Shown in pieces: positions 11,870-23,088 of a stretch of 64,000 bases of DNA (within the stretch, counting starts at the first letter, position 1; the number at the start of each line of letters is the position of its first letter). A model generated the notes under the pieces. That model saw nothing but the letters and a program-made list of their open reading frames with translations. It was not told the origin of the DNA and ran no database searches. A program made the position numbers and the translations under genes. Source of the stretch: Catenaria anguillulae PL171 (taxonomy: Eukaryota > Blastocladiomycota > Blastocladiomycetes > Blastocladiales > Catenariaceae); NCBI GenBank assembly GCA_002102555.1, contig MCFL01000109.1, positions 1 to 64,000 on the forward strand, in the 5' to 3' direction.

Positions 11870-11885
11870 GGCTTTGATAAAAGCC
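11870..11885 (-). promoter_or_regulatory. Histone-type 3' stem-loop of H2A
   Basis: Read on the mRNA strand this is GGCTTTTATCAAAGCC: a 6-bp stem (GGCTTT/AAAGCC) and a 4-nt loop, followed by ACAAAT. It lies about 195 nt after the H2A stop. It fits the histone mRNA 3' stem-loop pattern GG-YYY-TTYT-NA-RRR-CC except for one loop-side base. The same 16 nt, with CCC before and ACAAAT after, occur downstream of both H2B genes. Confidence 0.75.
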
Positions 11886-12079
11886 GGGGGAAAAACAAGA
11901 CAAAACAGAAAAAAAAATCAAAAAAGGGCAAAGGAGGGATAGGCTGAAATGCTCGGTAACCTTGAAAGACGACAATGACGTGGAAGCAACTCAAACCTGG
12001 GCCACGACCAAAGAAACTGGGCGCCTCGACAGGAAACCGACAAGAACCGGGTCACAGTGCGGGACAAGCAACAGACACC

Positions 12080-12562
12080 TTATTCGGCATCAGACTGCGA
12101 GCCAGAGGCGTGCTTCTTGGAGGGAGGCAAGAGAGCGGGGTTGATGGCAGGGATGACACCGCCTTGGGCGATGGTCACGTTGCCGAGGAGCTTGTTGAGT
12201 TCCTCATCGTTGCGGATGGCGAGTTGCAAGTGACGGGGAATAATACGGGTCTTCTTGTTGTCACGAGCAGCGTTGCCGGCGAGTTCGAGAATTTCGGCGG
12301 CGAGGTACTCGAGGACCGCAGCAAGGTAAACGGGGGCACCTGAACATGATGAGTTGATGACAAGACGTCAGAATGTGGTGTTGCAGATCACTGGGAGTGT
12401 CATGATAAACGACGTACCAGCACCGACACGCTGGGCGTAGTTGCCCTTGCGGAGGAGACGGTGGATACGGCCGACGGGGAACTGAAGTCCAGCCTTGGCA
12501 GAGCGCGACTTGCCGGTCTTGGGAGCCTCCACAGTCTTCTTTCCACCCTTACCAGCGGCCAT
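12080..12562 (-). CDS. H2A: Histone H2A
   Basis: Core histone H2A, packaging DNA in the nucleosome. Exons are 12562-12418 and 12339-12080, with a 78-nt intron splitting the RVGAGAP codons; 405 nt, 134 residues. The N-terminal tail starts [19 protein letters not shown]. The fold shows [40 protein letters not shown], the acidic-patch region ([11 protein letters not shown]) and [17 protein letters not shown]. The C-terminus reads [12 protein letters not shown]: a Ser-Gln is present but not the SQ-E/D-hydrophobic ending of H2A.X and of yeast H2A. It is divergent from the H2B gene at 13169 with 606 nt between start codons, and has a histone-type stem-loop in the 3'UTR. Identity is certain. Confidence 0.98.
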
Positions 12563-13168
12563 TTTGATAGTTGAAGAAAAGTATGTTGGGGTTGCGCGTA
12601 AGCGGTTGGATAGCTTCGATAGCTTGAAAATGCGAGCGCGGATGTGCGTTGGCAGAGATGGGGCCGTCAATGTGGGTCGGAGGGTCGGGGGGGGTCAGTG
12701 CTGCTTTTGTATGGAGACGCGTATGAGATCGACTCACTCAGTCAATCTGACGAAAAGTGATCGCCATATGCGGCTTGCCAAGCCAAGCAGATCGGCGTGC
12801 CATGGTAAAGGCACGTGACACGATTTCCACGTGCCGGCATGTGCTACAGAGCTTTGTTCAGAAGAGTCAGGCTCACACGAAAAGGCGCAAGCCATGGCAC
12901 GTGCCGATTGTGTGCCAGCAATCCATCAGTGGCACGTGTCGGAACACCGATCTGCGACATTGTGCTGCCCAAGACGCCGATCCTTTTTGCTTTCACGATC
13001 GAGTCACGTCCGCCGACTCGCGATCACTCTCAACTTTTGACGCTTTTATAAAACGCGGCATGCACCCCGCCCCACCCAACTTGACTGGATTCTGAAAGCT
13101 ATTGCATCCCGTCTCGTGCAAATTTCGCCAAGAACCGCTACCAAACCCACAACCCCACCGCCGTCACC
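12563..13168. promoter_or_regulatory. Divergent H2A/H2B promoter with four CACGTG boxes
   Basis: Shared control region of H2A (left) and H2B (right). CACGTG occurs at 12813-12818, 12829-12834, 12899-12904 and 12934-12939, each within GGCACGTG or its complement. TATAAA at 13047-13052 sits about 120 nt before the H2B ATG. No clear TATA faces H2A. The palindromic boxes fit a bHLH factor (Cbf1/Pho4/USF type) that could act in both directions. Confidence 0.6.
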
Positions 13169-13710
13169 ATGCCGCCCAAGACCTCTGACGCTGTCGCCAG
13201 CAAGAAGCCCGCCGGCAAGGCCCCCGTCAAGGCTGCCGCCTCGACCGAGAAGAAGGCTGGCAAGCGCAAGGCCGCCCGCAAGGAGACCTTCAACACGTAC
13301 ATCTACAAGGTGCTCAAGCAGGTCCACCCCGAGACGTATGTTAAAGAACATGTTTGTCTTTGCGTGTCTTGTGCCAGCTGACACAGACCCTTTTTGAAAA
13401 ACAATCAATAGCGGTGTTTCCAACAAGGCCATGTCCATCATGAACTCGTTTGTCATGGATATCTTTGAGCGTGTTGCCGACGAGGCCTCCAAGCTGTCGA
13501 CCTACTCGAAGCGCTCCACCATCTCGTCCCGCGAAATCCAAACCGCCGTCCGTCTTCTCCTCCCCGGTGAGCTCGCCAAGCACGCCGTGTCTGAGGGCAC
13601 CAAGGCAGTGACGAAATTCCAAGTACAGGCCCCCTTTTTCGTGCGAGTGTTGCCACGTGCCCATACTAACCTTGTCTCTCTTTGTATTTGTACAGTCGTC
13701 GTCCAAGTAA
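13169..13710 (+). CDS. H2B: Histone H2B, copy 1 (two introns)
   Basis: Core histone H2B, partner of H2A. Exons are 13169-13335, 13412-13622 and 13696-13710; 393 nt, 130 residues. The Lys/Ala-rich tail ([17 protein letters not shown]) leads into [21 protein letters not shown], where intron 1 lies within the Thr codon, then [20 protein letters not shown], the [20 protein letters not shown] region, and VTKFQSSSK. Intron 2 (73 nt) separates the last four residues and the stop; it begins and ends with GTACAG. The second copy at 23234-23702 encodes the same protein but lacks this intron. This copy keeps the H2A-linked promoter and TATA box, so it is probably the ancestral locus. Confidence 0.98.
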
Positions 13711-21113: not shown

Positions 21114-21131
21114 AAGTTGGCTTGAAGAGGG

Positions 21132-21440
21132 GTGATCGAGGAGCGTGATGTGATCACGCATCATGTCTCACGTCACGTCCCCATCCCTTCCTGATCGGCC
21201 CTGCTCAAAATTGTGTGCTAAAGATACATTCGTGTCGGTCCCGCAAATTGCTGCGGATGATTGTTGTGATTGAGTTTCCCTTTCTTGTCTCTTCCCTCCG
21301 GATCCGCTCTTGTGTGCTCCCCGATTCCTCACTCCGTTTCCCGCTCGCTCCCAAAGTGTATCTCGCGAGTTGTCTCCACATGTTAAATACGGGTCGCAAC
21401 CCCGCTTCCCAAATACAATTCTATATGGTTGTTCGCAGCA
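21132..21440 (+). repeat. Candidate Copia 3' LTR
   Basis: Begins TG right after a purine-rich tract downstream of the Copia stop and could end at a CA near 21440. No second LTR is in the window for comparison, so the boundaries are inferred. Confidence 0.35.
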
Positions 21441-22634
21441 TTGTCTTCCACTGTTCGTATATCAGACCCCTTCTACACTACCTTCAAGGATGGCAATGCC
21501 GAGTATCTCGGCGTGTACCAGTCGGAGGAGGCTGCTGCCGCCTGGGTTTGGGAGCGGGTCCGCGAGCTGTACGCCAACGACATTTTGGTGCCGCCGAGCG
21601 ACACGGAGGAGGAAATGTACAAGTGGGATATGGACGAAGATCCGTATCGGTTGGATTCTGGGTCGGGCGATGATTGGTCCGATTCTGAGTCGGATTCTGC
21701 GTCGGATGATTCTGAATCTGATGACGATTACACGGCCCCTGTGATTGCCAAGAAGAGGAGGGTTGACGGCTCGGGTCAAGTTCCCACTCGTGCCAAGTTG
21801 CCCATGCCGTCGGGCCAGCGGTCCCAAGCTCAGGGCTCAACCGCTCAGATTTCATTCAGGTTGAAACTGGATGCGAGCCCGGCGAACTCATCCGATTCGG
21901 GCGTGTCACTCAAACAGGACAATGTGGCAGCATCGACGCGCTGCCCCACCAACAATCAAGACTCGCCCAAGAAATCGCTCGCGGCGAGCACCTCGGCCTT
22001 GTCATCCGCTCACTCGTCCTCCCGTGTTGCACCTGCCGCCACCGCCGCCGCCAACACGCCAACCTGCAAACGGCCGCAGCCCATGGTCCGACCCAATCCG
22101 GTGCTGTTTGCCTTGGCCCAGTTGCCATTGACAGGGCTTCCTGTGCACCGCAAGTCAAGACCCGCACCGACTGCAACACAACCACCGCCCAAGGATGCCG
22201 CCACGCCGTCTGCCACGTCCCAGCCGCACACTGACCTGCCGGCCAAGCAAACAGTGTCCAAGCGTGCTCATGTCAAGAGCGATTTGGGCGAGCGCGCCGA
22301 CTCGTCGTCGACCACACCCGCTGTGGCGGCCATGCCAGAGAAACAAACGCGCCCACCTGCGCCTCGTTTGGATGCAGAGCCGCCTTTGGTGGTTCCCGCT
22401 CGCGCTCACTCGCCAACGACGTCGGCGCAGCGGTCCAAACCGCCCCCAACCACTCAGTTACCTGTCAGCTCGGTGCCTGTGAGTCGGACCACTTCATCCG
22501 ATTCGTGGGCTTCACGCAAACGGGGCGGAGTGGCTGCGGCGTGTGGGAAATCGCGCGCGCCGCGAAATGGCGGCAACGTGTACGTGGCGGCGACGGGCGC
22601 GAAAGCATTGCCATTGCATGTGCTGCTTGGATGA
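21429..22634 (+). CDS. Unrecognised acidic/proline-rich protein, full-length copy
   Basis: Open to 22634. The 5' end is unresolved: ATATCAG at 21459-21465 could be a 3' splice site, so a first exon may lie upstream or may have been displaced by the putative LTR. The N-terminal block (FKDGNAEYLGVYQSEEAAAA, then WVWERVRELYANDILVPP) looks structured. It is followed by a very acidic Ser/Asp run, a KKRR basic cluster, and a long Ser/Pro/Ala-rich tail ending GAKALPLHVLLG. The last ~215 residues are duplicated at 14311-14957. Convergent with H2B copy 2. No family recognised. Confidence 0.55.
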   Translation: MFAALSSTVRISDPFYTTFKDGNAEYLGVYQSEEAAAAWVWERVRELYANDILVPPSDTEEEMYKWDMDEDPYRLDSGSGDDWSDSESDSASDDSESDDDYTAPVIAKKRRVDGSGQVPTRAKLPMPSGQRSQAQGSTAQISFRLKLDASPANSSDSGVSLKQDNVAASTRCPTNNQDSPKKSLAASTSALSSAHSSSRVAPAATAAANTPTCKRPQPMVRPNPVLFALAQLPLTGLPVHRKSRPAPTATQPPPKDAATPSATSQPHTDLPAKQTVSKRAHVKSDLGERADSSSTTPAVAAMPEKQTRPPAPRLDAEPPLVVPARAHSPTTSAQRSKPPPTTQLPVSSVPVSRTTSSDSWASRKRGGVAAACGKSRAPRNGGNVYVAATGAKALPLHVLLG

Positions 22635-23072
22635 AGCAAGGCGGCGATTGGTGACTTTCGTGAGTAGTTCAGGTTGTGATGTGCCTCTTGTGACCAAGTG
22701 AATACATACTCTGTATATTTGACCTGAGACGAAATGACGAATTTGTAATAAGGGTGACATGGTGTGATGATGGTCCACGATTCCATGTTTTTACTGCCTT
22801 GTTCATCGTCTCTCCAAGCGGACTCAAGGCTACTACTACTCAAGGCACATCTGCAGTCATCAAGGGCTGCAAAAAGTCTCCCACCTGCTTTGGTGGAACC
22901 ATTGACACGCCGGCCAACGACGTCTCAACGCTGGCTGTCGGCTCACGACTTCTCCGGTGATTTTAGGTGACAGCACTCTCAATTCAAGCGGAAGAATAAA
23001 AGTGTTCCATGCCAAGGCACGGAAAACGACAAAGCATTGCATTGATGTACAGCTCGATGGCAGCAGATTTGT

Positions 23073-23088
23073 GGCTTTGATAAAAGCC
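23073..23088 (-). promoter_or_regulatory. Histone-type 3' stem-loop of H2B copy 2
   Basis: On the mRNA strand GGCTTTTATCAAAGCC, 146 nt after the stop, with the same CACCC and ACAAAT flanks as copy 1. Confidence 0.75.

Follow-up and report, generated by a model that had tools for sequence, protein, structure and literature searches.

Histone genes and hairpin elements of the window

Our analysis of a 64,000-nucleotide (nt) stretch from the blastocladiomycete fungus Catenaria anguillulae PL171 (GenBank assembly GCA_002102555.1, contig MCFL01000109.1, positions 1 to 64,000 of the forward strand; hereafter the window, lying on the contig we label C12) revealed three histone genes, each followed on its own strand by the same 16-nt element, GGCTTTTATCAAAGCC. 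The genes encode one canonical H2A and two copies of H2B, and the element resembles the 3′ stem-loop that is bound by SLBP in the replication-dependent histone mRNAs of animals. The genes and elements are as follows.

12080..12562, minus strand: H2A, canonical, C-terminus ...SGSQSDAE (gene model; exons 12562-12418 and 12339-12080, stop included)
11870..11885, minus strand: putative histone 3′ stem-loop of H2A (exact match; 6-bp stem, loop UAUC; -6.6 kcal/mol, fold z -1.94; Rfam Histone3 20.0 bits)
11864..11869, minus strand: ACAAAT adjoining the H2A stem on its 3′ side (sequence comparison and genome pattern search)
13169..13710, plus strand: H2B copy 1, divergent from H2A (gene model; exons 13169-13335, 13412-13622 and 13696-13710)
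13856..13871, plus strand: putative histone 3′ stem-loop of H2B copy 1 (exact match; Rfam Histone3 23.9 bits; fold z -4.17)
13872..13877, plus strand: ACAAAT adjoining the stem of H2B copy 1 on its 3′ side (sequence comparison and genome pattern search)
23234..23702, minus strand: H2B copy 2, protein identical to copy 1 (gene model; exons 23702-23536 and 23459-23234; without the second intron of copy 1)
23073..23088, minus strand: putative histone 3′ stem-loop of H2B copy 2 (exact match; Rfam Histone3 23.4 bits; fold z -2.91)
23067..23072, minus strand: ACAAAT adjoining the stem of H2B copy 2 on its 3′ side (sequence comparison and genome pattern search)

The exact element has no other site in the window. 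A scan allowing up to three mismatches returned six matches (the three sites on both strands) against 0.40 expected, and six or more were reached in 0 of 100 shuffles. An initial annotation of the window had reported three identical elements, flanked by CCC and ACAAAT and lying 145 to 195 nt past each stop codon. The matches are exact at all three places, the flanks are as it described them, and the gene models place the stem 194 nt past the H2A stop, which ends at 12080, and 145 nt past the stop of either H2B copy (ending at 13710 in copy 1). The initial annotation had also argued that an element shared by otherwise unrelated genes must be functional. This comparison is sound for H2A against H2B copy 1 but not for the two H2B copies, which form an inverted duplication that includes the 3′ untranslated region (identical at 52 of the 55 positions compared upstream and at 91 of the 95 compared downstream), and therefore the window provides two independent witnesses, not three.

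The inverted duplication spans roughly 13100-15100 and 21430-23700 and comprises H2B, its 3′ untranslated region and a fragment of a neighbouring gene. In copy 1 a second intron (13623-13695) precedes the last codons (SSSK and the stop), and it is precisely missing from copy 2 (23234-23459); an intron has thus been gained or lost between these recent duplicates while the protein stayed the same. Between the arms of the duplication lies an open frame (19301-20602) that reads by eye as a putative piece of a copia-type retroelement fused to the end of a hAT-type transposase. H2A and H2B copy 1 are a divergent pair with a common intergenic promoter region (12563-13168), and H4 and H3 on contig C112 are arranged alike.

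The element in the whole genome

In the whole assembly (41.07 Mb, 457 contigs) the exact element was found seven times and a loop variant, GGCTTTTTTCAAAGCC, once, giving eight sites that belong to five genes. These are H2A and both H2B copies on C12 and again on C223, H3 on C112 (plus strand) and H4 on C112 (minus strand), the last with GGCTTTTTTCAAAGCC. C223 carries a second version of the window's histone locus, 94-99% identical, which we read as the other haplotype. The gap from stop codon to stem is 184 nt for H3 and 144 nt for H4, so that the range over the five genes is 144-194 nt. A protein search of the genome with H4 returned this H4 gene only, and a search with the histone model returned this canonical H3 only. 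Each canonical core histone gene that was found (H2A, two H2B, H3 and H4) has the hairpin past its stop codon, always on the sense strand, and ACAAAT is kept directly 3′ of the stem in all five hairpin-bearing genes when their sequences are placed side by side. The initial annotation had named H3 and H4 as the genes on which its proposal should be checked, and absence of the element there as evidence against it; both carry the hairpin. It had also described the loop as one base off the animal consensus, which is GGYYYUHHUHARRRCC, or GGYYYTHHTHARRRCC, for the 16-nt hairpin. This description applies to H2A, both H2B copies and H3, but not to H4, whose loop is UUUC.

The hairpin is missing from four loci that encode replication-independent variants or paralogues of histones. 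None of them was among the genome-wide sites of the element or the consensus, and on the gene strand of all four no six-pair hairpin came nearer than 8 mismatches in 16 positions. In the viral contigs scanned, the 24-nt core has 0 exact matches. Besides a separate CENP-A-like gene, we observed a very divergent H3-like gene at C403:714000-718000, with a second match on C108.

Searching the genome with GGYYYTHHTHARRRCC gave 13 matches, eight of them the histone elements (three of the five genes being counted on the second haplotype too), and 18 matches for the reversed control. When the stem letters were left free and T, T and A around the loop were fixed together with CCACAAA, eight of ten matches were histone elements and the reversed control gave 0. 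Among the five stray matches to GGYYYTHHTHARRRCC, those on C109 and C334 represent the same site, present on both haplotypes (96.4% identical over 3 kb) with all six pairs kept, and those on C57, C96 and C135 have one stem pair broken and five kept. The strays on C334, C57 and C135 lie within long open frames (on the opposite strand in C135), and that on C96 lies outside such frames. With the Rfam Histone3 model, for which 75 of 3002 candidates in the genome were scored, the eight elements reached 20.0-26.2 bits and seven of them were the top seven matches; the eighth, H2A on C12, ranks below the stray site on C334 and C109.

Evidence for a signal at the RNA level

The orientation of the hairpin agrees with the direction of transcription in all five genes, which lie on both strands, and a DNA palindrome independent of transcription was ruled out on this ground. 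Folded alone, each of the five sequences forms the expected hairpin at -6.6 kcal/mol, with z scores from -1.94 to -4.35. Pairwise comparison of H2A, H2B copy 1, H3 and H4 showed 25-28 of 30 identical positions in the core, against 17-26 of 55 upstream (31-47%) and 16-33 of 95 downstream (17-35%); for H2A and H2B copy 1 the values are 27 of 30, 26 of 55 and 30 of 95. The upstream flanks of these four genes are all U-rich and have a weak U-rich stretch in common, with 60 shared 7-mers (one mismatch) against 24 in shuffles, two of 200 shuffles scoring as high. Chance or recent duplication as the source of an element common to H2A, H2B, H3 and H4 was ruled out by the pattern counts in the genome and the dissimilar flanks. 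An estimate of about 2e-20 for chance occurrence in four genes treats the genes as independent and the target as 200 nt long; it is an order of magnitude only and is not relied on here.

An SLBP gene in the same genome

The initial annotation had also made its proposal depend on an SLBP gene in the same genome. The Pfam SLBP domain PF15247 was found at two places, on C124 and C40, each at 107.8 bits (E value 1.0e-29), and in none of 14 control genomes, all of them prokaryotes, did it score over the cut-off. The two contigs are 97% identical over 6.5 kb and are read as haplotypes. In the Protein Data Bank only SLBP chains were matched at E values up to 0.01, including 4tv0 (5.8e-15), 4tux (5.9e-15) and 4l8r_C (3.8e-14). 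The RNA-binding domain (RBD), LAQRQKQIDYGKNTLGYQNYIAAVPKAKRKRADPVTPDKAAECSARSWAAQIKKWRRELHQW, contains YGKNT, TP(N/D)K and the RSW segment of the 4l8r chain. Between the haplotypes it shows two synonymous and no replacement codon changes, and the rest of the 537 aligned codons shows 12 synonymous and 20 replacement changes.

The first protein search returned as best match the EukProt protein m51a1_g10076, which we take to be an amoeba protein (69% identity over 90% of the query). Among the matches listed, the nearest named relative is H9P43_000363 of Blastocladiella emersonii, with 65% identity over a 71-residue RBD query, and other named relatives are those of Klebsormidium (67%), Chlamydomonas (65%), Polysphondylium (60%), three oomycetes (44-56%) and arthropods. 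The two blastocladiomycete proteins also have in common a C-terminal RPRRASDASTTS motif outside the RBD (30 of 57 positions, E value 2e-6). By itself this kinship would place the organism most likely among the Blastocladiomycota. No named fungus besides Blastocladiella occurred among the SLBP matches listed, in searches that miss true SLBPs (no vertebrate was named in the first list). A third search, aimed at fungal SLBPs and scoring the best 7998 candidates, gave none named as fungal among the 120 of 180 proteins listed. Contamination of the assembly was ruled out by the size of the contigs, 1.22 Mb for that with H3 and H4 and 418 kb for one with SLBP, and by the fact that Blastocladiella has the closest named SLBP.

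Some further observations concern SLBPs of other organisms. A large, mostly JGI-derived SLBP family has an N-terminal motif like the eIF4E-binding YxxxxL-phi (e.g. YSRDFLL), present in 41 of the 53 members that start with M and are longer than 350 residues, which suggests a direct link from the histone hairpin to the cap in that family. The motif was not seen in the 564 residues read of the C. anguillulae SLBP, nor in that of B. emersonii. The B. emersonii gene model ends in a RING finger (PF13920), which could reflect either a genuine fusion or an error in joining the model. In C. anguillulae no RING was seen in the frames read after SLBP, where an opposite-strand gene comes next.

The U7 arm and downstream signals

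The Rfam U7 model gave a single match in the genome, at an E value of 4.44, which is noise level as 12 of the 14 prokaryote controls match at that threshold; 65 of 2203 candidates were scored, and a diverged RNA would be missed. The LSM domain gave 22 matches, of which 18 were translated and four apparent second copies were left out. Read by eye, they represent 15 genes, namely SmB, D1, D2, D3, E, F and G, Lsm1-7 and one Naa38-like gene, the two places of Lsm1 being taken as haplotypes (96.8% over 3.2 kb). Lsm10 and Lsm11 were not among the 18 translated matches, and Lsm8 was missed too, so that the sensitivity of the search is incomplete. In searches run exon by exon, human LSm10 matched four places, all of them matches of the LSM model (SmD1, Lsm2 on two haplotypes, and SmD3) with a best E value of 0.027 at SmD1, and human LSm11 reached 1.72 at best.

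A purine-rich downstream element was not found either, the best 10 nt within 5-80 nt past the stem holding 6 purines in H2A, 7 in H2B, 7 in H3 and 5 in H4, and the purine fraction of the first 54 nt past ACAAAT being 0.30-0.37. In the 90 nt past ACAAAT the four genes have no 5-mer, 6-mer or 8-mer in common (one mismatch); the same 90 nt contain 16 shared 7-mers (one mismatch), where shuffles average 9.3 and 20 of 200 reach as many. There appears to be no sign of U7 guidance, which is short of proof of its absence. The term metazoan-type, used in the initial annotation, suits the SLBP and stem-loop half of the system, but U7, Lsm10, Lsm11 and the purine-rich element were not found in these incomplete searches.

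Six poly(A) signals, AATAAA and five variants, were also looked for. None occurs within about 380 nt past the stems of H2A and H4, and the sole tested signal of both H2B copies is AGTAAA, 278 nt past the stem. In the variant genes for an H2A.X-type histone and a second H2B, five such signals are missing within 500 nt, and such signals are therefore of little diagnostic value in this genome.

Interpretation and alternative explanations

A sense-strand hairpin on the canonical core set, its absence from four variant loci and an SLBP RBD are directly observed in this genome. The explanation we favour, with a probability of roughly 0.85, is that each element is a histone mRNA 3′ stem-loop of the replication-dependent type, to which the SLBP of the fungus itself binds. 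An SLBP-guided ending would then take the place of poly(A). The SLBP gene and the element on H3 and H4 lend support to the initial annotation in this respect. SLBP would bind the hairpin in nascent or mature mRNA, and the pre-mRNA would be cut just past it, in or near ACAAAT, by cleavage machinery of the CPSF73 type. The SLBP-capped end would then substitute for a poly(A) tail in stability, export and translation, and core histone output would thereby track S phase. These steps are modelled on animals, for which the available part of one source describes SLBP binding, cleavage past the hairpin by a CPSF73 complex, the lack of poly(A) and S-phase control (PMC7614891), and MBLAC1 is another endonuclease proposed for human histone mRNA in the accessible text of a second (PMC6303110). 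The mRNA 3′ end is likely to lie in or near ACAAAT, and we infer that these histone mRNAs carry no poly(A) tail. As neither U7 parts nor a downstream element came to light, SLBP may guide cleavage without the classical U7 small nuclear ribonucleoprotein (snRNP), and the best reading of the sequences would be an SLBP/stem-loop system in which no U7 arm can be recognised. It is a real system of known kind on an unexpected branch, and likely functional. Whether blastocladiomycete fungi keep SLBP-based, poly(A)-independent ending of core histone mRNAs working without a U7 snRNP we regard as evenly balanced.

Several results weigh against this explanation. All eight elements score below the RF00032 gathering score of 34, although that model covers 46 nt including downstream sequence and its gathering score tests for animal-like sequence more than for the system. 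The stray site on C334 and C109, which keeps six pairs in an open frame without histone match, outscores the window's H2A element (21.2 and 20.6 against 20.0 bits). Compensatory changes are missing from the stem in the five genes, a single loop base being all that varies within the 16 nt. The U7 RNA, Lsm10, Lsm11 and the purine-rich element escaped detection in the incomplete searches described above. AATAAA is present 29 nt past the H3 stem, and polyadenylated forms are therefore possible. The SLBP tree, finally, does not demonstrate vertical retention: the proteins of C. anguillulae and Blastocladiella emerge from the same unresolved fork, and only 20% of 200 bootstrap trees pair them as sisters.

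The AATAAA of H3 and the missing U7 arm would both fit mRNAs that are cleaved further downstream and polyadenylated, with the SLBP-bound hairpin affecting translation or stability only. We consider this doubtful, though worth keeping in view: the tested signals are missing near the H2A and H4 stems and reduced to a distant AGTAAA in the H2B copies (a weak argument, as the variant genes lack signals too), and conservation stops at ACAAAT, the position at about which animal histone mRNAs end. A full animal-like U7 snRNP, its RNA and Lsm10/11 too diverged or intron-split for detection, seems unlikely. Such genes could slip through searches made exon by exon that missed Lsm8 among the expected Sm/LSm genes, yet the LSm10 query matched only places read as SmD1, Lsm2 and SmD3, LSm11 and U7 did not rise above poor or control-level E values, and the purine-poor 90 nt downstream have no shared 5-, 6- or 8-mer.

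Transfer of SLBP and hairpin from another eukaryote, e.g. an animal host, would agree with m51a1_g10076 as top match and with a short-domain tree that does not unite the two fungal proteins. It is nevertheless improbable, since a protein that came along with fitting elements for four kinds of gene would make a complex transfer, Blastocladiella shares the C-terminal motif beyond the RBD, and the tree joins the two named arthropod SLBPs to three unnamed sequences, the fungal ones staying outside, with support of 92/88, which is just short of the threshold of the tool. That the element is a DNA motif, such as a terminator or replication-linked palindrome, or a relic of gene conversion without RNA function is very improbable. 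It is a near palindrome with two mismatches to its own reverse complement, but its orientation tracks transcription in every gene, the flanks of H2A, H2B, H3 and H4 are too little alike for recent conversion, and the genome encodes SLBP.

Evolutionary history

The favoured SLBP/stem-loop system was probably inherited from the ancestor common to animals and fungi and lost later within fungi. Retention is favoured over gain but unproven, because the RBD is too short to resolve the tree (67 columns, three of 20 inner branches well supported). A 2019 review, in its available part, describes fungal histone mRNAs as polyadenylated and without an SLBP/stem-loop system (PMC6723414), and we recognised no published report of SLBP in a fungus in the literature searched, which leaves most subscription papers outside its coverage. 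With a fungus that has SLBP and carries the hairpin on all core histones, the time at which fungi lost the system can be tested, and S-phase control of histones via mRNA 3′ ends gains a fungal model. If SLBP-based ending without U7 is true, the SLBP/stem-loop machinery was present in the animal-fungal common ancestor, its loss can be dated within fungi, and SLBP recognition and U7 guidance are separable halves of the animal system. A true absence of U7 would also reveal which part of the animal machinery is its older core.

Comparison with known systems

To our knowledge, yeasts and other Dikarya polyadenylate their histone mRNAs and have no SLBP, in which they differ from C. anguillulae, although fungal histone genes with introns are found in both. 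The metazoan system (RF00032, PF15247) is alike in the 6-bp stem with GG start and CC end, the Y-rich 5′ and R-rich 3′ arms, the 4-nt loop with U at positions 1 and 3, the AC past the stem, the presence on H2A, H2B, H3 and H4, and the YGKNT and TP(N/D)K motifs of the SLBP RBD. The fungal genes differ from it in the loop UAUC (four of five genes), their introns, scores below the Rfam gathering value, and the lack of any U7, Lsm10, Lsm11 or purine-rich downstream element found here. For introns in hairpin-bearing histone genes there is a precedent in bdelloid rotifers, where the gap from stop to hairpin is 40-80 bp compared with 144-194 nt in this fungus (PMC2642717, available part). Caenorhabditis elegans serves as the comparison for a non-classical downstream arrangement. 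There the hairpin is bound by the SLBP orthologue CDL-1, and the accessible text describes no purine-rich downstream element, as in C. anguillulae, but a conserved AATCC and mostly AATAAA past the hairpin (PMC1924863), whereas no shared downstream element was found in the fungus. The SLBPs of protists and green algae resemble that of C. anguillulae in high domain identity, as in Klebsormidium and Chlamydomonas, and differ in that the present one is from a fungus. SLBP/stem-loop systems in those groups were reportedly described by Davila Lopez and Samuelsson in 2008.

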